NCBI RefSeq assembly: GCF_030127145.1
Contig: NZ_CP126160.1
Span: 1-64,000, forward strand
Direction: 5' to 3'
DNA from: Halobaculum halobium
Lineage (GTDB): Archaea > Halobacteriota > Halobacteria > Halobacteriales > Haloferacaceae
DNA length: 64,000 bases
Below the pieces are notes generated by a model. The model had not been told where the DNA came from and ran no database searches. It saw nothing but the letters and a program-made list of their open reading frames with translations. Shown piece after piece: positions 2,372 through 53,652 of the stretch. Position 1 is the first letter of the stretch. Every line of letters begins with the position of its first letter. The position numbers were made by a program, and so were the translations under genes.

Positions 2372-2404
2372 TGTTTGTTGGCACCGTGAATGGGTGCCGG
2401 TGCG
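2372..2404 (+). promoter_or_regulatory. Leader stem-loop element 1
   Basis: T-rich tract 2372-2379, then stem GCACCG (2381-2386) pairing with CGGTGC (2398-2403) around a loop ending ATGGGTGC. It lies 28 bases before the ATG at 2432. The neighbouring gene upstream is divergent, so the T tract cannot simply be the end of an upstream transcript. Confidence 0.6.
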
Positions 2405-2431
2405 TAAAACCGGTCATCGTTACTCGATTCG

Positions 2432-2920
2432 ATGTCAACAAACTGTCTGATCCGGTTCAAAAGTCCGGATCACGGTCAGGTCGCACAGGTGTACAAGCAC
2501 TATGATGGATCTCCGGAGCGCGTGATCAAACGTCTACAGACACTACGCGTAATTCTAATTGCAACAGGATGTGTCCGTGGACCCACCTATGCTGCTGCCC
2601 AGTTCATCACTCTCGAACAATTCCAGCAACTGGCCGATGCCGCTGACAACTGCACGAAGGAGGACGATATGAGTTCGCTGGATTGGCTCACGGACCTCGA
2701 TCAGCCACGCGGACTCCTTGGGTTGGGAGTTCTCGACTCGCGTGATTCGGTGCCTCAGGACGTTGCTTACCTATACGAAGTCGAAGTGCCAAATCTGGGT
2801 AGCCCAACAACGTGGTCGGTTCGAATTAGCTCAAAGCAGTCACTCTCCACCTCGGTTCCCGTCGCTGAGCTATACGAGTCGACGTCTTGGTCACAGACTG
2901 GCGATCTAACTGAATTGTAG
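2432..2920 (+). CDS. Hypothetical protein, paralogue of the 44.7-kb gene
   Basis: A soluble, acidic 162-residue protein of unknown function. By eye it aligns over its full length with the product of 44731-45303. Both begin MST, have an RF pair, a segment YKHYDG or YRHSDG, the block YAAAQF, an LG-G-V turn, and YLYEVEVP or YLYVVELP before a C-terminal SW motif. They are therefore members of one haloarchaeal accessory family. No signal peptide or membrane segment is visible. Both paralogues are preceded by the same type of T-tract and stem-loop leader, which suggests that gene and leader travel and are controlled together. The ATG at 2432 is the first good start after that leader. Confidence 0.75.
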   Translation: MSTNCLIRFKSPDHGQVAQVYKHYDGSPERVIKRLQTLRVILIATGCVRGPTYAAAQFITLEQFQQLADAADNCTKEDDMSSLDWLTDLDQPRGLLGLGVLDSRDSVPQDVAYLYEVEVPNLGSPTTWSVRISSKQSLSTSVPVAELYESTSWSQTGDLTEL

Positions 2921-2941
2921 CACTTCGAAACCGCTTCTTTC

Positions 2942-2980
2942 CCGATAGTCAGTACGCTGGGATTGATTGGTCACTATCGG
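2942..2980. repeat. Inverted repeat CCGATAGT / ACTATCGG
   Basis: Perfect 8-base arms (2942-2949 and 2973-2980) separated by 23 bases, 21 bases after the stop of the preceding gene. Its position and spacing resemble the TTAACCAAC repeats elsewhere, but the arms differ. It may be a 3'-end hairpin. The rest of 2921-3215 shows nothing I can name. Confidence 0.45.
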
Positions 2981-3215
2981 TCCGATCATCCAAAACGAAC
3001 ACCAACTTGATGCAGTTGACAGCGTAGTCGCGAAGCGAGGAATTGCATCAGATGAATCGTCGAGTATTCCAGTATTCTCTCAGCACCTTCTACATTTTAT
3101 TTATCAATATAGAATAATAGGGGTGTTCTGAGTACAGGTGACTGAGTTGCTGGACCAGACCGAAATGGATTCTGTACCGGTAAAATCTCAGTACCTCTGA
3201 CTCGTAGCTCACAGT

Positions 3216-3728
3216 ATGCCCTACTGCCCGAATTGTGGGTGCCAAGTCAAGGCGGTTCACCACTACTGCGGATCCTGTGGCCAAGCACTGTCTGAGATTG
3301 CAGGGTCGGAGAGCGATCCACCAATGGCGGTCGAGAGAGATGGATTCCTGTCACTGCGTTCGCTCTCGTACGTCAATGAACTACTAGGCGGAGAACAGGA
3401 ACTTGACCGAGATTCTGTCTCCTACACACAGCTGTCGCAAGAGGTGAGCGCTGCATTTGCGGATTTCGCTCGTCTGGCAATGGTCAACGATCTCGATCTT
3501 CTTCAGCTCTGGGCGACTGGTTCGAACACGGCTGCATTGAGTAAATCGGTCGATGATATGAACAACAACCAGTTCCAAGAATGGCTTGCTGCGATTGGGC
3601 TGGGGCGAACTCTTCGGATGTACGATGACGCACTACATACGGAGTTCGAGGACGAGTTCAACGACAGACTGCAGAAACTAATCGAGGTCGCAAATGAAGA
3701 ACTCGACGACGGGGAGCTAACGGGGTAG
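3216..3728 (+). CDS. Zinc-ribbon hypothetical protein
   Basis: The 170-residue product opens with a zinc ribbon: CPNCG at residues 4-8 and CGSCG at 18-22, giving two CxxC knuckles that would bind one zinc ion. The remaining 140 residues are acidic and mostly helical in character, with no recognised domain, signal or membrane segment. Small proteins with an N-terminal ribbon and a variable C-terminal part are common in haloarchaea, but the family name does not identify a role. The gene stands alone between the 2.4-kb gene and xseA, on the same strand as both. The start ATG 3216 gives the ribbon at the very N-terminus, as is usual. Confidence 0.75.
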   Translation: MPYCPNCGCQVKAVHHYCGSCGQALSEIAGSESDPPMAVERDGFLSLRSLSYVNELLGGEQELDRDSVSYTQLSQEVSAAFADFARLAMVNDLDLLQLWATGSNTAALSKSVDDMNNNQFQEWLAAIGLGRTLRMYDDALHTEFEDEFNDRLQKLIEVANEELDDGELTG

Positions 3729-3858
3729 TTCTACGCTGCACAAGCGAGATGATCTGTTGATATCTGGGTCGTTCCCTACTACGATTCCCTTGGTGAGGTG
3801 GTATACTCAGCACGAAGATAGCTTTTTGAGGATCTTGTTCAAAAGTTAGTAGACGTGT

Positions 3859-4909
3859 ATGGCGGACGCACCGGATGCTGAACGGCAGGCAGCCGAGCCC
3901 GATGCAGGAGATGTCCTTAGCGTGTCACAGCTGAACGACCGGATCGCGTCGGTCGTCCAGGACACGCCTGCCCTCAACGGCGTCCGCTGTATCGGGGAGG
4001 TCACTGACCTCCACAAAAACAGTACGGCGCTCTACTTCACGCTGACCGACGGCGACGCCGAACTCCCCTGTATGATCTGGGCAAACCGTTACCGGGAGAT
4101 GGATGCCGACCTCGAGGACGGGACCGAAGTCATCCTCGAGGGCGATATCGACTACTGGGTCGAAGGTGGGAAAATCGACCTCAAACCGTGGGAAGTGATC
4201 GTCGTCGGCGACGGCGACCAAGCGGCTGCCGTCGAGCGACTGCGAAGCGAACTCGAAGAGCGTGGCTGGTTCGACGACGAGCAGAAACAGCGACCGCCGG
4301 CGTTCCCGGAGCGGGTCGGTGTCGTGACCTCGCTTCGGGGCGACGCCCGGTACGACATCCAGAACGCGATCCACGGACAGGACCCCACCGTTGACATCCT
4401 GGTGAAGGACGCAACCGTCCAGGGGTCGAACGCGCCGACGTCCATCGCGAACGGCATTCACCATCTCGACCGCTCGGAGGACGTCGACGCCATCATCGTC
4501 GGTCGCGGCGGGGGAGCGATTCGAACCTCAAGCGTTCAACACTGAGCGAGTCGCGGAGGCGATCTTCACCGCCAATACCCCGGTAGTCACCGCCATTGGA
4601 CACACTGATGACCGACTCATCGCGGATCAGGTGGCGGACGTCGCGACGATCACCCCGACCGCCGCGGGCGAGTATATCGTGAACTCCCGCCAAGAGTTCC
4701 TTGCGGGCGAGATCGAGCCGCTGGAGCAACAGCTCGACGCCGCGTACGAGACCTTCCAGCAGGACCACGAACACGAACAGGAGCTCGCCGAAGCAGTCGA
4801 TGAAGCGACCGCACCCGAGGGCCTCCCACCGATTTACTACAAGGTCGCCATCGTAGTGCTGCTGTTGCTGTTGTTGGTCATCACCGGACTTTGGCTGGGG
4901 GTGATCTAA
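3859..4909 (+). pseudogene. xseA: Exonuclease VII large subunit, frameshifted
   Basis: The large subunit of exonuclease VII degrades single-stranded DNA together with XseB. The N-terminal OB-fold (about residues 18-105, with GEVTDL and LYFTLTDG) and the catalytic-domain motifs GVVTS and VGRGGG are in the first frame, which stops at 4545. The family continuation, PVVTAIGH then ADQVADVATITPTAA, is in another frame up to 4909, and ends in a hydrophobic membrane-like tail. Near 4510-4532 two single G deletions, in the run after GGCG and in AAGCG, would exactly restore SDSNLKAFN between GRGGG and TERVAEA. The xseB gene follows after two bases. Two clean homopolymer deletions in one gene look like assembly error. 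Confidence 0.88.
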
Positions 4910-4911
4910 CC

Positions 4912-5115
4912 GTGGCAAACGACTCCGAAATCCACGATCGACTGAGTCGCGTCGAGGAGATCATTGAACAGCTCGACGCGGACGAATGCGACCTCGATGA
5001 AGGTACAGCCCTCCATGAGGAAGGGGAGGAACTCTTGACCGAAGTTCGAGAGATCCTCGACGAGGAAGCGGCGAAGTTGTGGAGCTCGAGTAAGCGAGCT
5101 AGTTCTCGACTTTAA
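4912..5115 (+). CDS. xseB: Exonuclease VII small subunit
   Basis: A 67-residue acidic helical protein starting at GTG 4912, two bases after the xseA stop. Its pattern fits XseB: a short two-helix protein with the core RVEEIIEQLDADECDLDEG followed by ALHEEGEELL, as in family members where L-E-G residues mark the turn. XseB binds the large subunit and is needed for exonuclease VII activity. Being directly behind xseA is the normal arrangement. The stop codon TAA lies inside the left arm of an inverted repeat (5112-5155), which probably marks the 3' end of the transcript or is a protein-binding site. Confidence 0.8.
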   Translation: MANDSEIHDRLSRVEEIIEQLDADECDLDEGTALHEEGEELLTEVREILDEEAAKLWSSSKRASSRL

Positions 5116-5583: not shown

Positions 5584-5589
5584 CCCGCT

Positions 5590-21700: not shown

Positions 21701-21732
21701 TGTCTGTTGCCCCCGCGAGGGGGTGGCGGGGC
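21701..21732 (+). promoter_or_regulatory. Leader stem-loop element 2
   Basis: T-rich tract TGTCTGTT (21701-21708), stem GCCCC (21709-21713) with GGGGC (21728-21732), loop containing GAGGGGGTGG. It lies 23 bases before the ATG at 21756. Confidence 0.6.
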
Positions 21733-21755: not shown

Positions 21756-22196
21756 ATGGCTTCGGAACAACGCAGCAGGGAACGAGCAGCGGATCATGCA
21801 GGAACTACCTCCGACGATGAGGCGCCGTGGGCGGACCTCGAGATGGCGGTTCCGACCGACCGGGATCACGCGTCGGTCGTCGCCCTCGTGGAGTGTGCCC
21901 TCGTCGAGCTCACACACGAGGCTGTGGGCGCCGTCTTCGTCTCCCGCCAGTTCGGGCGGTCGACGCGGACGCAGTACGTCGCTGCCGACGACGTCGGCGA
22001 GCAGTTCCAGAAACGGCACTTCGACGACCGGCTTGGCTGGCACGAGACCACTGTCCCTCGACGAACCGTTCGCGACGAGCTCATCACCCAGCTCACGCGG
22101 TCGGCCTCAACGCCGGCAGAGGGGGCAGGTGAGAGAGCAGCCAGCGAGCCAGACACCTTCGTCGTGAAGCCAGTTCGAGAGCTCCGAACGCCGTAG
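21756..22196 (+). CDS. Small hypothetical protein
   Basis: A 146-residue acidic soluble protein with no recognised motif. A central region (WADLEMAVPTDRD, then VSRQFGRSTRTQYVAADDVGEQF) reads like a compact alpha/beta domain; the ends are disordered. It belongs to the set of short plus-strand genes preceded by a T-tract stem-loop leader (21701-21732). The stop at 22194-22196 is followed nine bases later by an inverted-repeat copy (22206-22247). The gene is thus framed by the two recurrent non-coding signals of this element. I cannot assign a function. Confidence 0.65.
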   Translation: MASEQRSRERAADHAGTTSDDEAPWADLEMAVPTDRDHASVVALVECALVELTHEAVGAVFVSRQFGRSTRTQYVAADDVGEQFQKRHFDDRLGWHETTVPRRTVRDELITQLTRSASTPAEGAGERAASEPDTFVVKPVRELRTP

Positions 22197-22939: not shown

Positions 22940-22970
22940 CTGTTTATCGGCGCCGGAAGGCGTGCAGCGC
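22940..22970 (+). promoter_or_regulatory. Leader stem-loop element 3
   Basis: T-rich TGTTTAT (22941-22947), then GCGC (22950-22953) with GCGC (22967-22970) around a loop with GGAAGGCGTGC, a slightly diverged core. It lies 27 bases before the ATG at 22998. Confidence 0.45.
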
Positions 22971-22997: not shown

Positions 22998-23288
22998 ATG
23001 CCTGGTCCCGATCCGCACGACGACACGAGTCGCGACTACGAACGGTTCGAGAAAGAACAGCTCGCCCAGGACCGCGACGCCACCAGCGTCGACACGGCGG
23101 ACATCGACGACACGACGGCCCAGCGCCTGGTCAGCGACCTCGTCGACGCGGACGTCGTCACTCCGGTTCCTGAAGACCAAGTTCTGGTTCACGAGCCGAG
23201 CGGCACCACGTTCGACTCGATGACACAGCTGGCCGTCTTCCACCGTGGCTGGACGGCCGGCCGCGACGCCGACGGGGAGGGCGAGTGA
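22998..23288 (+). CDS. Small hypothetical protein
   Basis: A 96-residue, very acidic protein (DDTSRDYERFEKEQLAQD at the N-terminus). The C-terminal half (VHEPSGTTFDSMTQLAVFHRGW) reads like a small folded domain. No known family is recognised. The stop TGA overlaps the ATG of the next gene (TGATG at 23286-23290), so the two are translated as a unit. It is one of the short genes carrying the stem-loop leader. Function unknown. Confidence 0.65.
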   Translation: MPGPDPHDDTSRDYERFEKEQLAQDRDATSVDTADIDDTTAQRLVSDLVDADVVTPVPEDQVLVHEPSGTTFDSMTQLAVFHRGWTAGRDADGEGE

Positions 23289-27031: not shown

Positions 27032-27060
27032 AGTTTATCTGGCCCCCAGAAGGGTGCGGG
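27032..27060 (+). promoter_or_regulatory. Leader stem-loop element 4
   Basis: GTTTAT (27032-27037), then GCCC (27041-27044) with GGGC (27057-27060), loop CCAGAAGGGTGC. It lies 25 bases before the ATG at 27086. Confidence 0.55.
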
Positions 27061-27085
27061 CGTACGAGCGCTCCGGGTAGGACAG

Positions 27086-32511: not shown

Positions 32512-32625
32512 GATTTGGCGGCATCGGTCCCCCGGAAGGGGTTACAGTCCTGCAGAGAGTCTATTGTCCCCTCAATGGGTGAGGGGCTCGCTGTACTGGC
32601 GAGTTCCCGAAACACGGTAAGAACG

Positions 32626-33552
32626 ATGGCAACCAGAGACATCTACGAGAGCGGATTCGACGAAGACGTCCGAACGGAATCGAGTGCGAACCAGTGTCCC
32701 GAGTGCGACGGTCGGGTCACCACGAACGCGGTCGAAACGGTCTGCGAGGACTGTGGCCTGGTCGTCGACGAACAGCGCATCGATCACGGGCCGGAGTGGC
32801 GGGCGTACGACGACGAGGAGCGCGAGCGAACGGGCGCCCCACTTACTGCGGCCCGCCACGATCGCGGCCTGTCGACGGAGATCGGTCGCGGCACCGACGC
32901 GAAGGGGAACGAGATCTCTGGGCAGAAGCGACGGCGACTCGCGCGGATGCGCCGTGAGCAGACTCGCGGTCGCTGGCGGTCGAAAGCGGAACGGAATCTC
33001 GCACACGGACTGGGCGAGGTGCGTCGGTTGGCGAGTGCGCTCGAACTCTCTGATTCGGTCCGCGACCAGGCGTGTCAGCTCTTCCGGAGCGCCCAGAACG
33101 AGGATCTGCTTCGTGGCAGATCCATCGAGGCCATCGCCGCGGCCAGCGTCTACGGGGCCTGCCGGTGCAACGGCCGCTCGCGGTTGGTGGACGACGTCAG
33201 CGAGATGGCCCGCGTCGCGGAGTCACGAGTCACGAACGCGTACAAAACGTTGAACGAGGAGCTGGGCCTCCCCGCTGAGCCCGTCTCCCCCAGCATGTTC
33301 GTGCCGCGCCTCGCCTCGGACCTCGAGTGTCCGGACGAAATCCGACAGCGGGCCCGAGCCCTCGCGGAGCAGGCCGAGGGGCGCGGCGTCACGACGGGCG
33401 TCCATCCGGCCGGGTTCGCAGCGGCCTGCCTCTACAAGGCCGGTCGCGAAGAGGGCCGATGGTTGACGCAATCCGAGGCCGCGGACGTAGCGAACGCCTC
33501 GAAGGCGACTGTTCGGGCACACCGGGATACGTTGGAGGAACGGGTCGCCTGA
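32626..33552 (+). CDS. tfb: Transcription initiation factor TFB
   Basis: A 308-residue archaeal TFB, which recruits RNA polymerase to TBP-bound promoters. Zinc ribbon CPECDG (C24, C27) and CEDCG (C40, C43), B-reader region WRAYDDEERERTG, then two cyclin repeats; SIEAIAAASVYGACR and TGVHPAGFAAACLYKAGR are the cores. The final helix-turn-helix SEAADVANASKATVRAH is intact. ATG 32626 (MATRDIY) is chosen because it gives the normal distance to the zinc ribbon; an upstream ATG at 32515 adds unlike sequence. Haloarchaea carry many TFBs, and an accessory copy may direct transcription of this element's own genes. Confidence 0.92.
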   Translation: MATRDIYESGFDEDVRTESSANQCPECDGRVTTNAVETVCEDCGLVVDEQRIDHGPEWRAYDDEERERTGAPLTAARHDRGLSTEIGRGTDAKGNEISGQKRRRLARMRREQTRGRWRSKAERNLAHGLGEVRRLASALELSDSVRDQACQLFRSAQNEDLLRGRSIEAIAAASVYGACRCNGRSRLVDDVSEMARVAESRVTNAYKTLNEELGLPAEPVSPSMFVPRLASDLECPDEIRQRARALAEQAEGRGVTTGVHPAGFAAACLYKAGREEGRWLTQSEAADVANASKATVRAHRDTLEERVA

Positions 33553-36519: not shown

Positions 36520-38213
36520 ATGGCACAAACAGAACCAGCACTCGACGAGGTCAACCAGCAGCACGAGGAACCGTTCTACTGGCTGAACGAGGACAGCCGG
36601 GCGTTCCTCGACGACGGGTACCTGATCGAGGGCGTCACGGCCGAGGAGCGGGTCAGGGAGATCGCGGAGCGGGCCGAGGAGATCCTAGACGACGACGGCT
36701 TCGCGGACAAGTTCTACGACTACATGAGTCGGGGCTTCTACAGCCTCGCGAGTCCGGTGTGGTCGAACTTCGGTCTGGACCGAGGCCTGCCCATCAGCTG
36801 CTTCGGTAGTTACATGGAGGACAACATGGAGAGCATCCTCTACACGCAGGCCGAAGTGGGCGAGATGACCAAGCTGGGCGGCGGGACCAGCGGGTACTTC
36901 GGCGAAATCCGGCCCCGAGGCAGCCCGATCACGAACAACGGCAAGAGCAACGGGAGCTACAGCTTCACCGAGCTGTTCGACACTATCATCAACGTCGTCA
37001 GCCAGGGCGAGACGCGGCGCGGCCAGTTCGCGGGGTACATCGACGTTGAACACGACGACCTGACGAGTGGCTCAACATCAAGACCGAGGGCGACCCCGTA
37101 CAGGACATCTACTACGGCGTCATCATCGGTGACGATTGGTTCCGGGCGATGGTCGATGGCGACGAGGAGAAGCGAGAGACGTGGGCAGAGATCATAGAGA
37201 CGCGGATTAACATCGGTGTCCCGTATATCATCTTCCGGGACAACATGAATGACGGGAAGCCACAGGTCTACAAGGACAGGGGCTACGAGATCAACGGCTC
37301 CAACCTGTGTACCGAGATCGCGCTGCCAGCCACGCCAAACGAGAGTTTCGTCTGTTGTCTCTCGTCGATGAACGCGCTCCACTACGACGAGTGGAAGGAT
37401 ACCGACGCAGTAGAGACGCTGACGCGGTTCCTCGACGCCGTCATGGAGGAGTTCATCCAAGAGGCGGAGGGGACGCAGTTCATGGAACGCCCAGTACGGT
37501 TTGCGAAACGGCACAGGGCGATCGGCATCGGCGTCCTCGGCTGGCACAGCTACCTCCAGAGCGAGATGATTCCGTTCGACAGTATGGAGGCCATGGAGAA
37601 AAACGAGGCAATCTTCCGCACGATCAAGGAGCGAAGTTACGAGGAGAGTCGTCGGCTCGCCGACGAGTTCGGCGAGCCGGAGGTGCTCGAGGGCTACGGT
37701 CGCCGGAACGCGACGACGATGAGCGTGGCCCCGACGAAATCCAGCAGTGTCATCCTGGGGCAGGTCAGTCCGAGCATCGAACCGCTGAAATCGAACTACT
37801 TCGTCCGCGACGGTGCGAAGCTGAAGTCGACGCAGAAGAACCGGTTCCTCGAGGCGATACTGAAAGAGCGAGGCAGAGACGAGCGCGAGGTTTGGGACAG
37901 CATCGCACAGAACGACGGGAGCGTGCAACACCTCGACTGCCTGACCGACGAGGAGAAGGAGGTGTTCAAAACCTTCGCCGAGATCCCACAGATGGCGATC
38001 ATCAACCAGGCAGCGCAGCGGCAGAAACATATCGATCAGGCACAGAGCCTGAACGTCTCGATCGATCCGAGCGAAGTGAGCGTCAAGGAGATCAACCAAC
38101 TCTACATCGAGGCTTGGAAGAAAGGGGTGAAGAGTCTCTACTACCAACACAGCGTGAACGCCGCACAGAAGTTCAGCCGAGACATCCTCGAATGCAAGGC
38201 CTGTGAGAGCTGA
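36520..38213 (+). pseudogene. nrdA: Class I ribonucleotide reductase, alpha subunit, frameshifted
   Basis: The large subunit reduces ribonucleotides. The first frame (36520 to about 37062) has PISCFGSY (first redox cysteine) and GGGTSGYFG. The second, to 38213, has NLCTEI (Asn, Cys and Glu of the active site), VCCLSSMN (second redox cysteine), PTKSSS-x-I and a C-terminal CKAC pair for external reduction. Adding one G near 37061 converts HDDLTSG into HDDLDEWLNIKTEGDPVQDI and joins them. The whole protein has about 565 residues, a short form without an N-terminal ATP-cone. Since every catalytic residue is kept, the frameshift is probably a sequence error. Confidence 0.92.
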
Positions 38214-38630: not shown

Positions 38631-38662
38631 GGTTTATCGCCCCCGACAGGGGTGCGGGGGCG
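38631..38662 (+). promoter_or_regulatory. Leader stem-loop element 6
   Basis: GGTTTAT (38631-38637), then a seven-pair stem CGCCCCC (38638-38644) with GGGGGCG (38656-38662), loop GACAGGGGTGC. It lies 18 bases before the ATG at 38681. This is the cleanest member of the family. Confidence 0.7.
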
Positions 38663-38680: not shown

Positions 38681-38998
38681 ATGGCGACACTGCAAGCTGC
38701 GACGACGTCGACTGGCGCGATCGTATCGGATCCGCAGGCAGTCCGCGAGCTCTGTGAGAGCTACTGCTTCGGGACGCTCGACTGGGAGGTGACCGAAGAC
38801 GGAGAGCTCACCATCTGGGGGTACGACGACTTCGAGGTGTACGAGGCGCGGGAGAACGGCCTCCCGGACTACGAGGGGGGCATCGTGACCCACGAATTCC
38901 TGCGAGAACTCGCCGACCACCTCGAAGCCGACGAAGAGTTCGATATCCAGACGGCGGGGTTCACCAAGTGCCGCTTCCCAGTCCTGGCGAAGCGGTAA
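38681..38998 (+). CDS. Small hypothetical protein, probable frameshift near C-terminus
   Basis: A 105-residue acidic protein (VRELCESYCFGTLDWEVTED, then LTIWGYDDFEVYEARENG) of unknown function. It ends in FPVLAKR. If one A near 38990 is removed, the sequence instead continues PVLASGKFVRDGEVLHADLS and ends at TAG 39060-39062. That gives 125 residues and a tail that reads like real protein. I think the longer form is the true one. The gene is led by the best stem-loop of the window. The region 39063-39199 behind it holds no gene. Confidence 0.65.
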   Translation: MATLQAATTSTGAIVSDPQAVRELCESYCFGTLDWEVTEDGELTIWGYDDFEVYEARENGLPDYEGGIVTHEFLRELADHLEADEEFDIQTAGFTKCRFPVLAKR

Positions 38999-41353: not shown

Positions 41354-41384
41354 GTTGTTCGTCCCCCGGGAGGGGTGCGGGGCG
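41354..41384 (+). promoter_or_regulatory. Leader stem-loop element 7
   Basis: GTTGTTC (41354-41360), stem CGTCCC (41360-41365) with GGGGCG (41379-41384, one U-G pair), loop ending GAGGGGTGC. It is 35 bases before ATG 41420; a near-perfect Shine-Dalgarno GAGGTGATT (41406-41414) lies between. The gene upstream is divergent. Confidence 0.65.
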
Positions 41385-41419: not shown

Positions 41420-42151
41420 ATGGGACACCGCGCACTCGTTGCGTACGAACGCACGGACGGACAGTACACACTCCACTACAGCCATTGGGGTGCAGCGAAC
41501 CTGAAGCTCAAGCACCGAATCTCTGCTGAGTCGCCGTTCGGTGGCGACGACACCGACTCCAAGTGGGCGAAACAGCTCCTCGCAGAGCTTGCCGATGGCC
41601 TCGAGGCAGATGCGGTCGACGCCTACCTCGCCGGCGAGGATCGACCGTCGACGGTCGTCGAGCCGAAGCCCCGCGCCACCGGGCTCACCCTCGACGAGAT
41701 CGTCGCTGACCATCTCGACTACCTCCACCATGAGGCGTTCTTCGTGGTGTCGACGACGTTCGAGGTGACCGCCTATCGGACGCTGTGGTCCGGGCTCCAG
41801 TACGACTCGGAGACGGTCGAACAGGGAGAGACAGTCGGGAACGGCGCGCTCGCGACGGTGCGCTGGTACGACGGCGAGCCGGTCGGCGACGGCCACCTGC
41901 AGGGCCAGTTCGCGGCCCTCAAAGACGTCATCGGCGATATGCTCGACAAGGGCGTCTTCACGCCGTCGACGGCGAGGCAGTACCTAAAACGGAAGCTCGC
42001 TGAGCGGGTCGGGGACCGACAGGAGCTGCTCATTCCGACCGGAGAATCGCCCTTCGAGAAGGCGAGCCTCAACCACTCCTGTTGGATCTGCTACGTGGCA
42101 ACGGCTGTTTTTCAAGGGTCGGAATGGGTGAGCCCCGCCGTAGGCTCGTGA
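41420..42151 (+). CDS. DUF6735-like haloarchaeal protein
   Basis: A 243-residue protein whose N-terminus GHRALVAYERTDGQYTLHYS, then HWGAANLKLKHRI, is typical of a haloarchaeal family that I believe is DUF6735. It is found in haloarchaeal accessory DNA with no known function. The middle contains IVADHLDYLHHEAFFVVSTTF and the C-terminal part HSCWICYVATAVF. It is acidic and soluble. The start ATG has an excellent Shine-Dalgarno GAGGTGATT five bases before it, and the stem-loop leader 35 bases before. It starts a run of nearby small plus-strand genes, each with its own leader or tightly spaced. Confidence 0.75.
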   Translation: MGHRALVAYERTDGQYTLHYSHWGAANLKLKHRISAESPFGGDDTDSKWAKQLLAELADGLEADAVDAYLAGEDRPSTVVEPKPRATGLTLDEIVADHLDYLHHEAFFVVSTTFEVTAYRTLWSGLQYDSETVEQGETVGNGALATVRWYDGEPVGDGHLQGQFAALKDVIGDMLDKGVFTPSTARQYLKRKLAERVGDRQELLIPTGESPFEKASLNHSCWICYVATAVFQGSEWVSPAVGS

Positions 42152-42155: not shown

Positions 42156-42572
42156 ATGACCTCAGACGACGACCCGTTTCACGACTGCAAGTTGGATCCC
42201 GAAGCGATCCTCGGAACACACACCTTCGAAGACGTCCTATTCACCGACGACACGGAAACCCCGGTGAACGTGCTGACCGGCGAGACACCGGCACATTCGC
42301 AAGCAACCGTCGAGGAAGCGAAGGAGTTCGCTGCGAGTATCGACACGGAGACGCCCCAGATCGCGCTCCCCGCATCCGTCGAGTCGCAGGTCGAAACACA
42401 GAGCAAGCCCTACACGGCGGCCGCATTCTTCCACTTCAAGGCGACAGGCTCGCTCGAACGCCACCGTGCTTACCACGCCGCCTACGAGTCGGACGCGTTC
42501 GCCGTCGACTTCGAGGCCGACTACGAATCGGGCGACCTGACTATCACTGTCGAACGAGCGGACGAGGCCTGA
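42156..42572 (+). CDS. Small hypothetical protein
   Basis: A 138-residue acidic protein. The central block, FAASIDTETPQIALPASVESQ, and the C-terminal half, YTAAAFFHFKATGSLERHRAY, then FAVDFEADYESGDLTITVE, look like an alpha/beta fold. No family is recognised. It starts four bases after the DUF6735-like gene and has the Shine-Dalgarno-like GTGAT directly before it, so it is likely to be translated from the same transcript. Confidence 0.6.
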   Translation: MTSDDDPFHDCKLDPEAILGTHTFEDVLFTDDTETPVNVLTGETPAHSQATVEEAKEFAASIDTETPQIALPASVESQVETQSKPYTAAAFFHFKATGSLERHRAYHAAYESDAFAVDFEADYESGDLTITVERADEA

Positions 42573-42590: not shown

Positions 42591-42623
42591 AGTTTTTAGA
42601 GCGCCGGCGATGGGTGCCGGCGC
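42591..42623 (+). promoter_or_regulatory. Leader stem-loop element 8
   Basis: AGTTTTTAGA (42591-42600), then a perfect eight-pair stem GCGCCGGC (42601-42608) with GCCGGCGC (42616-42623), loop GATGGGT. The hairpin is identical to element 10 (44688-44710). It lies 51 bases before ATG 42675. Confidence 0.7.
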
Positions 42624-42674: not shown

Positions 42675-43166
42675 ATGCATATGGTGATTTACGCACTGGT
42701 AGAGGCATCGACGCACGACGACGCGCTGGCCACCGGAAAGACGGTGTTCGACCGACTGGTCGGCGCGGACCCACACGCCGGCGCCGTCTTCGATTACTAT
42801 GTGACCTTCGACGAGGAGGACACGTCCGTTGCGGGGAAGGCACGATGGGGGGAGTTGCCGACGGCAGCCCCCGTCGACTCCGATGACGGCGAAGACCTGC
42901 TCGAGCGTGGCTGGGAGGCGACGAAGGAGGAATTCGAGCGTAATCTCGACCGGGTGAAAGAGGCCATCCAGGAGTTCTCCGACGAGGAGATCATGCGCGA
43001 CGAGGACCTCGCCCGGCACGCCTTCCACAAGGTCGGTGCGTACGACGGCCCGACGATCTTCCTGTACACCGAACACGGAACCGGCATTCGCCACCGTGGA
43101 CAGCTGGATCGACTCCTCGAGGAGAGTGAAGAGCTCTGGATCGTACCCGCTGACGTCCACTTCTGA
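42675..43166 (+). CDS. Hypothetical protein
   Basis: The 163-residue product begins MHMVIYALVEASTHDDALAT, followed by a long charged region (LLERGWEATKEEFERNLDRV, then KEAIQEFSDEEIM) and a C-terminal HKVGAYDGPTIFLYTEHG. It looks like an alpha/beta protein with a mobile helix, but the family is not recognised. ATG 42675 is chosen over 42648 because GAGGTG (42663-42668) gives a normal Shine-Dalgarno distance. It carries the leader with the GATGGGT loop. It is followed by the CxxC protein gene after three bases. Confidence 0.65.
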   Translation: MHMVIYALVEASTHDDALATGKTVFDRLVGADPHAGAVFDYYVTFDEEDTSVAGKARWGELPTAAPVDSDDGEDLLERGWEATKEEFERNLDRVKEAIQEFSDEEIMRDEDLARHAFHKVGAYDGPTIFLYTEHGTGIRHRGQLDRLLEESEELWIVPADVHF

Positions 43167-43552: not shown

Positions 43553-43587
43553 GCTGTTTTTCGGCCGGGCACGAGGTGGTGGCCCGG
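43553..43587 (+). promoter_or_regulatory. Leader stem-loop element 9
   Basis: GCTGTTTTT (43553-43561), then CCGGGC (43565-43570) with GCCCGG (43582-43587), loop ACGAGGTGGTG. It lies 21 bases before the ATG at 43609. Confidence 0.65.
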
Positions 43588-43608: not shown

Positions 43609-44004
43609 ATGAGTCTCGAAGTACTTGACCGACACAGCGAGGCACTGTTCGAGTTCCTCTGGTGTCCCGTCTGCGGGAAGGAGGTCTTCACTCACATCCC
43701 CTTCGAGGGGGTGTTCTGCAAGAACTGCAACACCCAGGTCGAACTCCAAGAATCCCGCGAGACACGCGGCTACGAGGAGGCCGTGCTCGCCTGCTTCGAT
43801 TCTACCACCACCTGGAACCTCCACGTCGACGAGAAGCTACGTCGCGACCTGCCTGATGGGTCGGCCCGCGTGAAGATCCTCGGCGCACCGGGCGCCTACG
43901 AGGTCGACTGGTGGAGTCCAGAGCCTGGTGAGGATTGGGAACCTGTCCAACGCGGCGAGTTCGACGACGTCGAGGAGCCAAACGAGGTGTCGCACCTGGC
44001 GTAG
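43609..44004 (+). CDS. Zinc-binding hypothetical protein
   Basis: A 131-residue protein starting MSLEVLDRHSEALFEFLWCP. A zinc ribbon is formed by CPVCGKE and CKNCNTQ (19 residues apart). The rest has a compact acidic domain ending in DVEEPNEVSHLA. The start is ATG 43609; an upstream GTG at 43540 would run through the leader hairpin and is rejected. The family appears in haloarchaeal accessory DNA, and I believe it is one of the DUF75xx families, but the exact number is uncertain. The function is unknown. Confidence 0.7.
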   Translation: MSLEVLDRHSEALFEFLWCPVCGKEVFTHIPFEGVFCKNCNTQVELQESRETRGYEEAVLACFDSTTTWNLHVDEKLRRDLPDGSARVKILGAPGAYEVDWWSPEPGEDWEPVQRGEFDDVEEPNEVSHLA

Positions 44005-44678: not shown

Positions 44679-44710
44679 GTTGTTTCTGCGCCGGCGATGG
44701 GTGCCGGCGC
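44679..44710 (+). promoter_or_regulatory. Leader stem-loop element 10
   Basis: GTTGTTTCT (44679-44687), then stem GCGCCGGC (44688-44695) with GCCGGCGC (44703-44710), loop GATGGGT, identical over 23 bases to the hairpin of element 8. It lies 20 bases before ATG 44731, with GGTGAT just before the start. Confidence 0.7.
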
Positions 44711-44730
44711 ACCCGCGTCGGCGGTGATCG

Positions 44731-45303
44731 ATGTCGACACGAAGTCAACTCCGATTCATCCAACGGAGCGAGACCGCAGGCGAACAGTCCGATACCGACC
44801 GCATCGCACAAATCTACCGCCACTCGGACGGGTATCCCGATAGCGTCCTCCATGACCTGGACCAGCTGAAGCAGCTGCTTGACGAGACACGAACAGAGCG
44901 CGGGGCTGCGTACGCCGCTGCCCAGTTTCTGTTCCTCGACACGCTCTCGACGATGACCCTCTACATGGACGAAGGGCGTGACCGGAGCATCCACGCTGAC
45001 CAACCCTCGGATCTCCTCGACCCGGACAATATGGAGCACCTCAACCAGCCGATGTTTCTGCTCGGACACGGCGTCGAGAATCCGGCCGACGGCATCCACG
45101 GCGACGAAGAGTACCTCTACGTCGTCGAACTCCCGACACGGAATCCGTTCGAGGAGCCGTCCGAGTGGACCGTCAAAGTGAGTGGTCACTCCGCCTTCCC
45201 GCGCTGGGATGGTCCGACCGAGGAAGCCTTCGATCGGGCTAGCTGGCAGTTTGAAGGACCGCTCTCGGCCGCCGTCGACGAACTACTAGCTCAACCAAGC
45301 TAA
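44731..45303 (+). CDS. Hypothetical protein, paralogue of the 2.4-kb gene
   Basis: A 190-residue acidic soluble protein. It shares with the 2432-2920 product the MST start, an RF pair, YRHSDGYPD (YKHYDGSPE in the other), GAAYAAAQFLFLDTLS, a loop with LLDPDNMEHLNQPMFLLGHG and YLYVVELPTRN. This copy is 28 residues longer, mainly in the first 60 residues and the middle. The function is unknown. Shine-Dalgarno GGTGAT ends three bases before the ATG. The leader is of the same type as before the paralogue. Confidence 0.75.
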   Translation: MSTRSQLRFIQRSETAGEQSDTDRIAQIYRHSDGYPDSVLHDLDQLKQLLDETRTERGAAYAAAQFLFLDTLSTMTLYMDEGRDRSIHADQPSDLLDPDNMEHLNQPMFLLGHGVENPADGIHGDEEYLYVVELPTRNPFEEPSEWTVKVSGHSAFPRWDGPTEEAFDRASWQFEGPLSAAVDELLAQPS

Positions 45304-47510: not shown

Positions 47511-47544
47511 CTGTTTGTTGAACCCCTGAGAGGGGTGCGGGGGT
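47511..47544 (+). promoter_or_regulatory. Leader stem-loop element 11
   Basis: CTGTTTGTT (47511-47519), stem ACCCCT (47522-47527) with GGGGGT (47539-47544, one U-G pair), loop GAGAGGGGTGC. It lies 23 bases before ATG 47568. The upstream gene is divergent, so the T tract belongs to this element. Confidence 0.65.
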
Positions 47545-47567: not shown

Positions 47568-48254
47568 ATGAACGGGAATGTACCTATGGCCAGTTCGGAA
47601 TCGGTTCCAGTCGCATCGCCCGGTCAGTCCCACCGAGACACAGTCGAATACGTCGGCTTCCGCGTCGACGGCCAAGCCGTCATCCTGAACCTCTCGGAGC
47701 ATCGGCGACTCTCCCTCGAGCGCAGTCTGGACCTCGTCAACCACAGTCCAAGCGGGTTCGAGTGGGGGTATAGTGGTAGCGGGCCCGCCCAGCTCGCGTG
47801 CGCGCTCCTCCTCGACTACTACGACGATGAGCAGTTCGCCCGTGAGCACTACATCGCGTTCCGGAATCAGGTGGTTTCGCAGCTGGAGTGCGACGGTGCC
47901 GCGGCGTGCTGGCACCTCCCCGGCGAGGAGATCGACGCCGCGATGGCGACCCTTACCGACGACGTCGTCGCCCTCGCCGACGGTGGACGGCCGTCACCGA
48001 CGCTCCCCGAGAACTGGCGAGCCGTCTCTCGCCCGGACCGGCGGGTCTTCCAGCGCGCTGATCGCGACCACTACATCGTACTCGGGGATGGGAGGGAGGA
48101 GTGGCTGGTCGTACTCTGCAGCCAAGGCGACCGTGCATATCCTGCCCCGCTCGCACATCGGGCGGTTGCCGAGGAGGCTGACGTGGAACGGGTAATCCAG
48201 GAACTCGCCGAAGAGAGCAACGACCTCATCGAACCCCCGGAGGGGGAGCACTGA
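47568..48254 (+). CDS. DUF6166-domain protein
   Basis: A 228-residue protein whose central block is a DUF6166 domain: YVGFRVDGQAVILNLSEHRR, SLDLVNHSPSGFEWGYSGSG, PAQLACALLLDYYDDEQFAR, then FRNQVVSQL. This family occurs on plasmids and phages of many prokaryotes, and its function is not known. The C-terminal part here adds a beta-rich region and an acidic helix. ATG 47568 is chosen; ATG 47586 is possible. Its stop overlaps the start of a tiny gene (TGATG at 48252-48256). Confidence 0.8.
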   Translation: MNGNVPMASSESVPVASPGQSHRDTVEYVGFRVDGQAVILNLSEHRRLSLERSLDLVNHSPSGFEWGYSGSGPAQLACALLLDYYDDEQFAREHYIAFRNQVVSQLECDGAAACWHLPGEEIDAAMATLTDDVVALADGGRPSPTLPENWRAVSRPDRRVFQRADRDHYIVLGDGREEWLVVLCSQGDRAYPAPLAHRAVAEEADVERVIQELAEESNDLIEPPEGEH

Positions 48255-50543: not shown

Positions 50544-50577
50544 GTTGTTTTTGCGCCCGGGAGAGGGCGCAGGGCGC
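50544..50577 (+). promoter_or_regulatory. Leader stem-loop element 12
   Basis: GTTGTTTTT (50544-50552), then GCGCCC (50553-50558), which can pair with GGGCGC at 50565-50570 or at 50572-50577. Two alternative stems are therefore possible. It lies 51 bases before ATG 50629; GAGGTGA (50617-50623) is the Shine-Dalgarno sequence between. Confidence 0.6.
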
Positions 50578-50628: not shown

Positions 50629-51789
50629 ATGAAAGATCCAGAGTCCAGAACCATCTTGGCTGGCGTCGATGGACGTACCGACACCGAACTACCCGAGTGG
50701 TACCGAGAGCATCATGCAGATGCAGACCCCGTGACCTTCGCCGAGGCGGTTCGTGATCTTCCGCAGGCCGTCGAGACGACCGTGGCGTACCAGAATCCGT
50801 ACACCGACGAGTGGGTCGAGACGGAGCGGTTCAACGCGCTCGTCGAGCCGAGTCGGGCTCGGGAGCAGGCCCGAGATGAGGACGCGGAGACAGACCCGTT
50901 GTTCCACGTTCCCACTGACAGCTACTCGATCATCAACCCGGTCGACGTCTACGGGCCGCTAGAAGAGGTCCTCCGCGAGGAGACCATCGACGGAACGCCG
51001 TTGGGCGAGGTAATGTTCGGCGAGATTCGGCGCTACCGGGGCGGCGGCGAGGTCCACATGGACATCATGTTCGATGGCCTCGAGGTGCGCCTCCCCGGTC
51101 GGTCGGACCCGATTACGATGGGCGTCACGTCGGGCTACGACTTCTTCGGCGAGCACGCCGTCTACGTGGAGGGGTTCGCCCAGGATGGCTACTGCTCGAA
51201 CACGATGCGCTCGCTCACCGACAAGGAGGTTATCAAGCACGTCGGCGACGTACGGAACTTCCGCACCTGGTGGGAGGAACTCCTCGCACAGGTCGAACTC
51301 GTCGCCGACGACCTCTTCGAGTTCATCCGAGACGCTCAGGATATCGACCTCGACTTCTCGGAGCTCCCGTTCACCGTCACGGAGTTCTACACCCTGCTGG
51401 GCTTCCCGGACTACCTGGCCGAGCGTGCCGCCGGCGATGCAGAAGCCAATGCGGCGTCCCCCTTCGAGATCGATATGTGGACGCTGCATTCCGGCGCGAC
51501 GTACGCTCTCACCCACTTCTTCCAGGGGAAAGAGGGGGCATCCCTCGATCAATACGTTCGGATCGCCAACGACATTCTGTTCAACCCGGAAGGTACAATC
51601 GAGCGCGTCGAGCAGGCGTACGAGCAGCAGCTAGAGGCGGACGGTGACGACGGGTCACAGGCCTCGCTGGCCGGCGAACGAGCACTGGCGAGCATAGAGC
51701 GCATCAGTGACGACCTGCAGGAGAAAGTTGAGCAATTCGAAGAACGCGAGGACGCCCTGCGTGAGCGGTTCCAAGAGGCGATGGCCTGA
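50629..51789 (+). CDS. Plasmid protein resembling DUF932 family
   Basis: A 386-residue acidic protein. The N-terminal part has a segment like YRVPTDSYSIINPVDVYGPL (here HVPTDSYSIINPVDVYGPLE), similar to the Y-x-(I/V)-(I/V)-x-(P/N) block of DUF932 phage/plasmid proteins, followed by GEVHMDIMFDGLEVRLPG and TSGYDFFGEHAVYVEGFAQD. The C-terminal third is helical and coiled (ISDDLQEKVEQFEEREDALR). The relation to DUF932 is by resemblance only. ATG 50629 follows GAGGTGA, an ideal Shine-Dalgarno sequence. The function of these common plasmid proteins is not known. Confidence 0.65.
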   Translation: MKDPESRTILAGVDGRTDTELPEWYREHHADADPVTFAEAVRDLPQAVETTVAYQNPYTDEWVETERFNALVEPSRAREQARDEDAETDPLFHVPTDSYSIINPVDVYGPLEEVLREETIDGTPLGEVMFGEIRRYRGGGEVHMDIMFDGLEVRLPGRSDPITMGVTSGYDFFGEHAVYVEGFAQDGYCSNTMRSLTDKEVIKHVGDVRNFRTWWEELLAQVELVADDLFEFIRDAQDIDLDFSELPFTVTEFYTLLGFPDYLAERAAGDAEANAASPFEIDMWTLHSGATYALTHFFQGKEGASLDQYVRIANDILFNPEGTIERVEQAYEQQLEADGDDGSQASLAGERALASIERISDDLQEKVEQFEEREDALRERFQEAMA

Positions 51790-51815: not shown

Positions 51816-51848
51816 TTCTGTCTTTCTCGCCCTAGAGGGGTGGAGGGC
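51816..51848 (+). promoter_or_regulatory. Leader stem-loop element 13
   Basis: T-rich CTGTCTTTCTC (about 51818-51828), stem GCCCT (51829-51833) with AGGGC (51844-51848), loop AGAGGGGTGG. It lies seven bases before ATG 51856, closer than most. Confidence 0.6.
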
Positions 51849-51855
51849 TACCGAG

Positions 51856-52077
51856 ATGGAACAGTCCACGATTAGCGACGGGAGTGACGACGAATTCCCA
51901 CCTGAGAAGCGTCTTGAAGCACCGAATTACCGATTGGTCAAGGCCGGTATCGCGACGATTCCCGATATGCAGACGCTTCGGGAGTGTGTTGCCTACGAGA
52001 ACGCCCACCAGAATCGAACGCAGATTCTGCGCCGGCTCAAGTGGAAAGCTGAAGAACTGCGTGAGGAAGAAGATTGA
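51856..52077 (+). CDS. Small hypothetical protein
   Basis: A 73-residue charged protein, acidic at the start (SDGSDDEFPPEKRLEAPNYR), then MQTLRECVAYENAHQNRTQI and a basic C-terminal helix RRLKWKAEELREEED. The helical tail could bind nucleic acid or a protein. No family is recognised. The stop is followed nine bases later by an inverted-repeat copy and then the leader of the next gene, so the gene stands in a tightly framed unit: leader, gene, repeat. Confidence 0.6.
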   Translation: MEQSTISDGSDDEFPPEKRLEAPNYRLVKAGIATIPDMQTLRECVAYENAHQNRTQILRRLKWKAEELREEED

Positions 52078-52086
52078 GCTCTGTTC

Positions 52087-52127
52087 TTAACCAACATTTC
52101 CGCGAGAGCTTCAGTATTGTTGGTTAA
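52087..52127. repeat. Inverted repeat TTAACCAAC, copy D
   Basis: TTAACCAACA (52087-52096) and TGTTGGTTAA (52118-52127); spacer 23 with nine-base arms. It begins nine bases after the preceding stop. Confidence 0.8.
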
Positions 52128-52135
52128 TAAGCTTG

Positions 52136-52184
52136 CTCTGTTTTTCGTGCCCCCGAAGAGGGCGAGGGCTTCTTCGAGAGCCCT
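52136..52184 (+). promoter_or_regulatory. Leader stem-loop element 14 with alternative hairpin
   Basis: CTGTTTTTC (52138-52146), stem GCCC (52149-52152) with GGGC (52166-52169) around a loop with GAAGAGGGCGA. The right arm also belongs to AGGGCT (52165-52170), which pairs with AGCCCT (52179-52184). The two stems exclude each other. GAGGTGA (52187-52193) and GTG 52200 follow directly. Confidence 0.6.
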
Positions 52185-52199
52185 CAGAGGTGACTTCCA

Positions 52200-52547
52200 G
52201 TGAGTCAACAACAGAGTCCCGACAACGTCTCGATCGACGAGATCCCGGTCGATATCGACAACACGCAATCAGCGGAGGTCGATTCCGCCGACGTCCCCCA
52301 CGAAATCGAATCCATCACCCGTGGGCTCGCCGGTGAGCAGCCGCCGACGAATCCGCTGGTCGTGCTGAAAGCGGCCCGGTGGTGGTACATTCACGGCAAG
52401 GGCGGCACGGATCCTGCCTTCCAGTGGGCCATCGAGTGGACGCGTCATCTTGCGACCGACACGCCCAGTGACGTCGAGCGGTTCGACAAGTTCCTTGAGT
52501 ACCTTGTCGAGGTCGGCTTCGCGGACGAACGCCACGAGCTCCGCTGA
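52200..52547 (+). CDS. Small hypothetical protein
   Basis: A 115-residue protein starting at GTG 52200, six bases after a good Shine-Dalgarno sequence (GAGGTGA). The first 40 residues are acidic and disordered. The rest, NPLVVLKAARWWYIHGKGGT then FQWAIEWTRHLATDTPSDVE and RFDKFLEYLVEVGFADERHE, is a compact helical domain with many aromatic residues. No family is recognised. Its leader has two competing hairpins, the second next to the ribosome site, so its translation may be switched. The next gene, ardC-like, has its own leader. Confidence 0.6.
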   Translation: MSQQQSPDNVSIDEIPVDIDNTQSAEVDSADVPHEIESITRGLAGEQPPTNPLVVLKAARWWYIHGKGGTDPAFQWAIEWTRHLATDTPSDVERFDKFLEYLVEVGFADERHELR

Positions 52548-52556
52548 CCGACAGAG

Positions 52557-52590
52557 CGGTTTTTTGAACGCCCCTGAGGGGTGCGGCGCG
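52557..52590 (+). promoter_or_regulatory. Leader stem-loop element 15
   Basis: CGGTTTTTTG (52557-52566), stem CGCC (52569-52572) with GGCG (52585-52588), loop CCTGAGGGGTGC. It lies 44 bases before ATG 52635; GGTGA (52625-52629) is just before the start. Confidence 0.6.
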
Positions 52591-52634
52591 ATCTGAACAA
52601 ACGCAGTTGCCGTGAACTCGATTCGGTGAACACG

Positions 52635-53582
52635 ATGTCCACGACCAGAGACTCGTCGGTCTCCTTCGAGGAGACCGACACGCGATCAGACGAGATGAAC
52701 AGTACCATCGAACAGTGGATCGACGACCTCGTCGCCGGCGTCGACGACGCGCAGGCCAGCGACGAGTTCCAGGAGTGGCTCGACGTCCAGAGTCGCTTCC
52801 ACGACTACTCCTACCGGAACACGCTCCTCATCAAGCGGCAGTATCCCGAAGCGAGCCGAGTGGCGGGCTACCGGACGTGGCAGGAGGAGTTCGACCGCCA
52901 CGTTCAGGAGGGTGAGTCGGCCATCTGGATCTGGGCGCCGATCATCACCACTCAGTGCCCGGAGTGTGAGAATTCGCCGAGCTATCACGAGGATAGCGAC
53001 TGTGACTACGATGAGACGTCGCCCGAGGAGTGGTCCGAGGGCCTGGTCGGGTTCAAGCCCGCGCCGGTGTTCGATGTCTCCCAGACCGAGGGCGAGCCGC
53101 TTCCCGACCTGGACACAGAAGCGACCGGCGACGCTGGCGATCTCGTCGAACAGTTGACTGACGCCGCTGATGACCTCGGCGTGACGGTGCGGATCGTTCC
53201 AGCCGAGGAGTGGACCCACGGCGAGGCGAAGGGCATCTGCGAGCAGCTGAGCCTCGTCGACGTTCAGCCGCTCGTCGAGGTGCGTGATCGGGAGAACGAG
53301 GCCGACCTCGCGCGGACGCTGATTCACGAGTACGCACACGCCCTGCTCCACTTCGATGTCGACGACGACACCGAGCGGGCGAAACGCGAAGTCGAGGCCG
53401 AAGCCGTTGCGTACGTCGTCGGGCGCTACTGCGGGCTCGACACGAGCGGGTCAGCGTTCTACCTCGCTGCGTGGGAGTCGGACGATCCCGAGATCGTTCG
53501 CGAGCGCCTCGGCCGGATTAGTCGAACGGCAGAAGAACTCATCGACGTTCTCGAGAGCGAATCCTCGTCCTCACTCAGTTAA
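52635..53582 (+). CDS. ArdC-like antirestriction protein with metallopeptidase domain
   Basis: The 315-residue product has an ArdC N-terminal DNA-binding domain (FQEWLDVQSRFHDYSYRNTL, then LIKRQYPEASRVAGYRTWQE), a Cys-rich insert CPECENSPSYHEDSDCD and, from about residue 215, a zincin metallopeptidase domain. The zinc motif is HEYAHALLH with a downstream EAEAVAYVVGRYCGL. ArdC proteins protect single-stranded DNA entering by conjugation from restriction. That fits this conjugative element, which would meet host nucleases on arrival. Start ATG 52635 has GGTGA before it; an upstream GTG is rejected. The stop codon is in an inverted-repeat copy. Confidence 0.85.
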   Translation: MSTTRDSSVSFEETDTRSDEMNSTIEQWIDDLVAGVDDAQASDEFQEWLDVQSRFHDYSYRNTLLIKRQYPEASRVAGYRTWQEEFDRHVQEGESAIWIWAPIITTQCPECENSPSYHEDSDCDYDETSPEEWSEGLVGFKPAPVFDVSQTEGEPLPDLDTEATGDAGDLVEQLTDAADDLGVTVRIVPAEEWTHGEAKGICEQLSLVDVQPLVEVRDRENEADLARTLIHEYAHALLHFDVDDDTERAKREVEAEAVAYVVGRYCGLDTSGSAFYLAAWESDDPEIVRERLGRISRTAEELIDVLESESSSSLS

Positions 53583-53620
53583 CCAACAGAGTGATGGATT
53601 CCTTCCGCTCTGTTGGTTAA
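53579..53620. repeat. Inverted repeat TTAACCAAC, copy E (longest arms)
   Basis: Arms of 13 bases, TTAACCAACAGAG (53579-53591) and CTCTGTTGGTTAA (53608-53620). The ardC stop codon lies in the left arm. The right arm runs straight into GTTTTTCT, the T tract of leader element 16. Confidence 0.85.
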
Positions 53621-53652
53621 GTTTTTCTGCGCCCGCCGAGGGGCGGAGGCGC
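53621..53652 (+). promoter_or_regulatory. Leader stem-loop element 16
   Basis: GTTTTTCT (53621-53628), stem GCGCC (53629-53633) with GGCGC (53648-53652), loop CGCCGAGGGGCGGA. It lies 17 bases before ATG 53670. Confidence 0.6.

Follow-up and report, generated by a model that had tools for sequence, protein, structure and literature searches.

A repeated inverted-repeat element upstream of haloarchaeal plasmid genes, with one arm complementary to two partners

The first 64,000 nucleotides (nt) of contig NZ_CP126160.1 of Halobaculum halobium (assembly GCF_030127145.1), hereafter the window, carry 17 copies of a short element, each located upstream of a gene and made up of a T-rich box (T-box) followed by an inverted repeat, with arms A1 and A', that encloses a G-rich core. 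The 3' arm of the repeat, A', is complementary not only to A1 but also to a third segment, A2, found just before the Shine-Dalgarno (SD) sequence or the start codon, and the two helices behave differently towards G.U pairs. The element recurs on related plasmids, where it is linked to a limited set of gene families. Tentatively, and aware that the account may well be wrong, we favour the view that each element is the start module of one plasmid gene, composed of a DNA start signal and a 5'-terminal RNA hairpin, with the RNA starting between the two arms of the inverted repeat.

An element repeated along the window

Sixteen sites of one plan had been reported in a preliminary description of this DNA, which gave a span and six arm pairs; 16 sites, with all six arm pairs among them, fit the plan of a T-box GTTTWTC followed after ca. 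18-21 nt by RRGGG[TC]G within a hairpin; an additional element was found at 22942, and all 17 are on the + strand. Position-specific scoring matrices (PSSMs) for T-box and core, without stem information and trained on 66 loci that included the window, rendered 17 window sites with scores of at least 15, 17 on the + and 0 on the - strand, while six 20-kb chromosomal stretches used as a control (240 kb, both strands together) rendered 3. A first iteration at low threshold had drifted (1543 matches, both strands), and a threshold of 14 was used instead. The T-box so defined is G-T-[TC]-[TG]-[TAG]-T-[CT] and the core [AG][GTA]GGG[TC]G, in agreement with the fixed loop core of the preliminary description. 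A covariance model, R1, was built from 15 window sites, whose consensus when aligned on sequence is GTTTTTnnGCCCCnGnGAGGGGTGCnGGGG, and, as follows from its construction, recovers these seeds at E<2e-4; element 7 was given an E value of 0.78 by R1, yet has the highest PSSM score in the window. The elements, with the open reading frame (ORF) or gene that follows and the evidence in brackets, are:

Element 1, 2373..2403, +: T-box GTTTGTT, arms GCACCG/CGGTGC, core ATGGGTG; before ORF 2432-2920 (PSSM, R1)
Element 2, 21702..21731, +: arms CCCCGC/GCGGGG, A':A2 helix of 5 bp; before ORF 21756-22196 (PSSM, R1)
Seventeenth element, 22942..22970, +: A1:A' only GCGC/GCGC, A':A2 helix of 7 bp; before ORF 22998-23288 (PSSM; R1 only at E 0.045)
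Element 3, 27033..27061, +: arms GCCC/GGGC; before the C2H2/HNH protein gene 27086-28048 (PSSM, R1, Pfam)
Element 4, 32559..32586, +: arms CCCCTCA/TGAGGGG; before the plasmid TFB gene 32626-33552 (PSSM, R1, Pfam TFIIB)
Element 5, 38632..38662, +: arms CGCCCCC/GGGGGCG; before ORF 38681-38998 (PSSM, R1)
Element 6, 41354..41382, +: arms CCCCG/CGGGG, A':A2 helix of 6 bp, SD GAGGTGAT; before the DUF6735 gene 41420-42151 (PSSM, R1, Pfam)
Element 7, 42107..42135, +: arms GGGT/GCCC, weak and of inverted composition; before ORF 42156-42572 (PSSM score 25.8; R1 E value as above)
Element 8, 42592..42623, +: arms GCGCCGGC/GCCGGCGC; before ORF 42675-43166 (PSSM, R1)
Element 9, 43556..43587, +: arms CCGGGC/GCCCGG, third arm A2 present in its family; before the DUF7567 gene 43609-44004 (PSSM, R1, Pfam)
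Element 10, 44679..44711, +: arms TGCGCCGGC/GCCGGCGCA; before ORF 44731-45303 (PSSM, R1)
Element 11, 47513..47544, +: arms ACCCCTG/CGGGGGT, A2 CCCGC, divergent gene upstream; before the DUF6166 gene 47568-48254 (PSSM, R1, Pfam)
Element 12, 50547..50577, +: arms GCGCCC/GGGCGC, 18 nt from a divergent ORF start; before ORF 50629-51789 (PSSM, R1)
Element 13, 51820..51848, +: arms GCCCT/AGGGC; start codon at 51856 (PSSM, R1)
Element 14, 52140..52169, +: arms GCCC/GGGC, A':A2 helix of 7 bp with A2 AGCCCTC directly before the SD GAGGTGA; before ORF 52200-52547 (PSSM, R1)
Element 15, 52559..52588, +: arms CGCC/GGCG; before the ArdC-like gene 52635-53582 (PSSM, R1, Pfam)
Element 16, 53621..53653, +: arms TGCGCC/GGCGCA; before the ORF that starts at 53670 (PSSM, R1)

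Linked genes and distribution

The association of the element with the gene downstream, already proposed from the window, holds on related plasmids. In ten annotated plasmid stretches, oriented to place their shared genes on the + strand, a site scoring at least 15 was found at most 160 nt upstream of 95 out of 294 + strand genes and of only 1 out of 119 minus-strand genes. When downstream ORFs were chosen mechanically, 26 families of at least three members contained 903 of the 989 sites. The element precedes mainly about two dozen plasmid gene families, such as those of an ArdC-like protein, DUF6166, DUF6610 (an assignment taken from the record annotation), DUF6735 and a plasmid TFB, this last family accounting for 33 sites in 31 loci. 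Pfam domains were matched by 6 of the 17 window products tested (TFB, ArdC-like, DUF6166, DUF6735, DUF7567 and the C2H2/HNH protein), the ArdC-like match reaching 22.7 bits for a cut-off of 22.6, and no Pfam match was obtained for the remaining 11. Variable stems, a short conserved core and one site per gene are also what recombination (attC-like) or transposition sites in front of gene cassettes would present; however, the sites keep to the same downstream families, their distance to a start codon with an SD is conserved, and an A2 beside the start would be left unexplained, so we regard such an origin as highly improbable. The T tract had been said not to be a leftover terminator because sites lie after divergent genes, and this was borne out by 17 listed sites that have a divergent start codon no more than 160 nt away, at 18-156 nt; the terminator explanation is rejected.

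Matches to R1 were found in 167 of the 292 genomes of the class to which the window belongs (E<=0.01 per genome), in 56 of 77 genera, of which ca. 3 genomes could be chance matches, and in 22 of the 196 genomes of a phylum-wide sample at E<=0.001, all of them the window's own genome or members of its family or order. The related plasmids are haloarchaeal. Plasmid pHS1 of the laboratory strain Halobacterium salinarum R1 has nine sites within a 40-kb stretch; at one of them a 9-bp A':A2 hairpin, CGGCGTGAC/GTCACGCCG, can be seen by eye. The chromosome of the window's own genome bears three matches to the model between 2024170 and 2027636 (contig C1, locus L092, + strand), two with E<0.01 and a nearby one with E 0.53; one of these matches precedes a TFB-family gene, which suggests an integrated relative. 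A viral origin was rejected, on the weak test of one exact 23-mer, which rendered 0 viral contigs.

Of the sites scoring at least 17 in 146 loci (2.96 Mb), 861 occupy the predominant strand of their locus and 19 the opposite one, and one locus has at least two sites on each strand. This restriction to one strand per region is consistent with a single-stranded DNA (ssDNA) or cruciform promoter for plasmid establishment, comparable to Frpo of the F plasmid or to the early promoters of phage N4, in which a hairpin would form on the entering (or supercoiled) DNA and the polymerase would start in the pre-opened loop. A type IV secretion system of type MPF_T is reported for 6 of the 10 annotated plasmids, an ArdC-like establishment gene is among the targets, and mismatches in A1:A' are not biased as expected for the + strand but, if anything, in the opposite sense (8 A.C vs 3 G.T, p 0.23). 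However, this A.C excess is not significant, the shared strand may merely reflect gene order, no oriT (origin of transfer) or relaxase was located, oriT not having been sought, and 10 out of 10 plasmids were typed as non-mobilizable. We consider a promoter of this kind unlikely.

Two helices that share one arm

Complementarity was assessed in 155 non-redundant elements out of 768 against a null in which arms were exchanged between elements. For A1:A', the stem of the preliminary description, the mean longest Watson-Crick helix was 5.42 bp, compared to 3.99 bp in the null (0 of 500 permutations), and a helix of at least 5 bp was present in 71% of the elements, compared to 29%. The arms therefore do change together, as had been claimed. 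The pairing of the same 3' arm with A2 had gone unnoticed: here the mean longest helix was 4.48 against 3.86 (0 of 500 permutations), whereas the 30 nt before the T-box, taken as an upstream control, gave 3.81 against 3.85 (66 of 100 permutations). The A':A2 duplex energy had a mean z of -1.03, while that of the upstream control was +0.26 (n=135 non-redundant of 462), and the A':A2 excess peaked within ca. 20 nt 3' of the hairpin. In the window, a helix of at least 5 bp is formed by A1:A' at 13 of the 17 sites and by A':A2 at 7. The three arms are illustrated, in the order A1 / A' / A2, by CGTCCCGCA / TGCGGGACG / CGTCCCG and, in unrelated letters, by TGGGCCG / TGGCCCG / CGGGCCA and TTGCGCCTGCG / TGCAGGCGCGA / TTGCGCCTG. 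In the family of the element at 43556, one pair of A':A2 is found as GC in 6, GU in 6 and AU in 2 cases, and A1:A' exceeds shuffled alignments, of which 6 of 500 reached its percentage and 12 of 500 its number of cells changed on both sides.

Mismatches in the two helices

An RNA helix should tolerate G.U more readily than A.C. When each combination of family, position and pair was scored as a single event, helices of at least six Watson-Crick pairs contained 3 G.T, 8 A.C and 31 other mismatches in A1:A' and 30, 1 and 17, respectively, in A':A2 (Fisher p 1.2e-5); for helices of at least five pairs the counts were 8, 14 and 51 in A1:A' and 35, 3 and 32 in A':A2. When A' was set independently of the first helix and segments were exchanged for the null, A':A2 rendered 37 G.T vs 6 A.C (null fraction 0.60, p 2.8e-4) and A1:A' 3 vs 8 (null 0.45, p 0.37). 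Among distinct helices of at least 6 bp the figures were 51 vs 5 for A':A2 (null 0.67) and 12 vs 11 for A1:A' (null 0.52), and an earlier version of the event count had rendered 19 vs 2 and 5 vs 9, respectively. By events, the RNA-type bias is seen in A':A2. The claim that the stem-loop is a structured RNA is supported as regards the complementarity of its arms but not as a demonstrated RNA structure, since by events A1:A' shows no G.U preference, even though the unique elements, considered below, lean to G.T.

Spacing, start codons and promoter signals

Among the 123 elements whose stem reached at least 5, the distance from T-box to core had a standard deviation of 1.17 nt, a constancy partly built into the scan (gaps of 7-14, weighted), compared to 1.63 for the stem start, 1.54 for stem length, 2.98 for loop length and 2.04 for the start of A'; this distance stays linear while the stem ranges from 5 to 12 and the loop from 4 to 21. 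The T-box lies 34-95 nt from the annotated start codon, never less than 34 (n=95 genes). SD-like 5-mers precede 51 of the 95 genes with a hairpin and 37 of the other 193 + strand genes, so that an SD, said to be usual, is enriched but present in about half of the genes. The suggestion that the G-rich loop pairs with the anti-SD (CACCUCC) of 16S rRNA was discarded, since the letter that would complete GAGGTG, an A, is found in 11 of 404 sites and a G in 347. In 182 non-redundant sites out of 329, neither the 60 nt preceding the T-box nor the segment that separates the hairpin from the start codon had an AT-rich stretch at a fixed position. A promoter position weight matrix made from 119 minus-strand genes gave a best score in the 60 nt upstream of T-boxes of 2.48, against 2.97 for shuffled sequence, with little power, as its own training promoters scored 4.65 against 4.05 shuffled.

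These data bear on the possibility, which we judge nearly as likely as the start module, that the element is RNA throughout: transcripts would begin upstream of the T-box, A1:A' would offer the core, in its loop, for recognition by a protein or ligand, and the start region would be blocked by the mutually exclusive A':A2 hairpin. The two mutually exclusive helices share A', A2 is located just before an SD or start in a set of genes enriched in SD 5-mers, minimum free energy folds of the window leaders vary, showing either A1:A' or core:A1 plus A':A2, and the core lies in the loop of a helix whose mismatches lean to G.T among unique elements. On the other hand, the event count for A1:A', the linear distance between T-box and core despite the changing stem and loop, and the failure to find a promoter signal upstream, by composition and, in agreement, by the low-power matrix, argue against it, and some sites are only 18-63 nt from a divergent start codon.

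It can also be the case that the T-box is an ordinary TATA box and the RNA starts ca. 27 nt downstream, just 3' of A', the inverted repeat being a protein-binding or structural element between the two. The haloarchaeal core promoter, as outlined in PMC4983044, comprises a TATA motif TTWT, a TFB recognition element (BRE) CGAAA and a WW at -10. TTWT is matched by the T-box, 3' of which there is a start-like pyrimidine-G step, and both the minimal distance from T-box to ATG and the linear spacing agree with a TATA box. Compared to that outline, however, CGAAA is absent and the positions -6 to -2 are G-rich instead (182 non-redundant sites), GGG occupies the place where WW would be expected, the proposed start is ca. 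20 nt away rather than ca. 27, and an inverted repeat surrounds the core. Moreover, the A':A2 G.U signature requires A' to be in the RNA, a base preference at +29 to +33 was not found, and a single DNA-binding protein is rejected as reader because the arms are too variable. An ordinary TATA promoter appears somewhat less probable still than the ssDNA promoter.

A proposed start module and what speaks against it

The behaviour of A' as a transcribed segment and of A1 as one that is not makes a start between them the simplest solution. The core ends 3' in an invariant [TC]G ([TC] in 404 of 404 sites, G in 398 of 404), which is start-like, pyrimidine-purine steps being common at start sites. In the start module that we favour, the DNA part would consist of the T-box and the core at a near-fixed linear distance, with A1/A' flanking the core; the RNA would start at or near [TC]G, with A1 left untranscribed and A' as the first transcribed segment, and A' would then pair with A2, the second copy of A1, in a 5'-terminal hairpin beside the site where the ribosome lands. 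An effect on translation is suggested by where A2 lies, beside the SD or start codon, and the hairpin probably tunes translation or mRNA stability. The match between A1 and A', which RNA would not explain, may act in the DNA; our guess is a cruciform or DNA hairpin with the core exposed and opened in its loop. A possible reader is the TFB that the plasmid encodes, whose gene itself bears the element in the loci counted above.

Several observations weigh against this start module, in addition to the part of the constant spacing that comes from the scan. A canonical TATA box would lie farther from the proposed start, at ca. -27 (in the leaderless-type gene set analysed here a T-rich stretch is located at -29 to -26), than the T-box does at ca. 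-20, and neither BRE nor the WW at -10 is present; with this short distance and these absences, an ordinary TBP/TFB start at [TC]G would not be expected, and the module would not be a standard promoter. A2 is not universal, as an A':A2 Watson-Crick helix of at least 5 bp is present in only 41% of the elements. In the family of 43556 the A':A2 percentage was reached by 220 of 500 shuffles, in that of 42107 within-family pair counts showed no excess for A1:A' or A':A2, and RNAalifold on a MAFFT alignment of 15 sites did not support covariation (term +0.07), we think because the variable stems are out of register. Covariation is accordingly seen for both helices across elements but not by RNAalifold or in most single-family alignments. 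As for mismatches, A1:A' provides few events, 11 at 6 bp and 22 at 5 bp. Unique elements gave 27 G.T vs 12 A.C for A1:A' and 72 vs 2 for A':A2, the same version counted by events giving 7 vs 11 and 30 vs 2, respectively, and an early count restricted to A1:A', in which sequences rather than events were taken, gave 24 G.T vs 18 A.C with a null favouring A.C.

A bolder version, which we think rather unlikely, would make the element a new archaeal promoter class: an inverted repeat of free sequence would form a DNA hairpin or cruciform with the start site in its loop, usable on supercoiled or on incoming single-stranded plasmid DNA; one arm would be reused in a 5'-terminal RNA hairpin gating translation, and the plasmid's own TFB would be the reader of a plasmid-wide establishment regulon.

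Relation to known systems

In riboswitches and attenuators two mutually exclusive helices share one strand beside a start codon, as A1:A' and A':A2 do; here, however, an extended conserved aptamer is lacking, the conserved part being ca. 6 core letters and a U tract, and a scan of the window with Rfam at gathering thresholds gave 0 matches. Frpo-type ssDNA promoters and those of the N4 virion RNA polymerase resemble the element in their variable-stem hairpin, in the use of one strand and possibly in serving establishment genes, but they use a bacterial or phage polymerase. The SAS/ESAS of Cluster K mycobacteriophages, a start-associated sequence that recurs with inverted repeats ahead of numerous short genes, may be comparable, its sequence, host domain and spacing being different. 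Among haloarchaeal regulatory stem-loops in 5' untranslated regions, a leader stem-loop of Haloferax volcanii stopped translation when stabilised, according to PMC2636863, and the hairpin described here could likewise lower or gate translation, but that leader belongs to a single gene, whereas here a module with an arm common to two helices is shared by many gene families. The element was not described in any title or opening of an abstract met in our literature searches, and the names DUF6610, DUF6735, DUF6166 and DUF7567 were not found in the literature searched.

A signal shared by many small genes of a widespread haloarchaeal plasmid family points to a common way of switching plasmid genes on. 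If the proposal is right, this family would have a gene-expression code of its own, with one start module on about two dozen mostly uncharacterised gene families that include the plasmid's TFB-type factor, and the element would be a marker for finding and annotating such plasmids. It would also provide a testable example in which a single sequence arm acts first in a DNA and then in an RNA structure, and a route into the expression of archaeal plasmid genes upon arrival in a new host.

Other repeats and plasmid features

A second repeat, an exact inverted repeat composed of TTAACCAAC, 23-26 free letters and GTTGGTTAA, is present in seven copies in the window (5112, 22206, 34548, 52087, 53579, 56310 and 59478), the copy at 53579 adjoining element 16. 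Related plasmid loci have four (L043), six (L047), two (L009) and four (L040) copies, and 0 copies were found between 64 and 110 kb of contig C3. It is possibly a partition or repressor site. Contig C3 (167061 bases) repeats itself at an offset of ca. 107.86 kb, the offset shifting by a few bases from site to site, and no single fixed offset gave a letter-exact match; it is probably a circular plasmid of ca. 108 kb that was assembled past its end, with indel errors. In the ORF list three genes are split across reading frames, which by eye are one similar to exonuclease VII (window 3859-4918), one similar to ribonucleotide reductase (36520-38213) and the gene that follows element 16 (53670-54553), and these splits may be sequencing indels. 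Finally, repeats of the form CACCCC...CCAGAGTGAA at 56756-59430 of the window surround an orc1/cdc6 gene (57033-58331), and this region is likely a replication origin.

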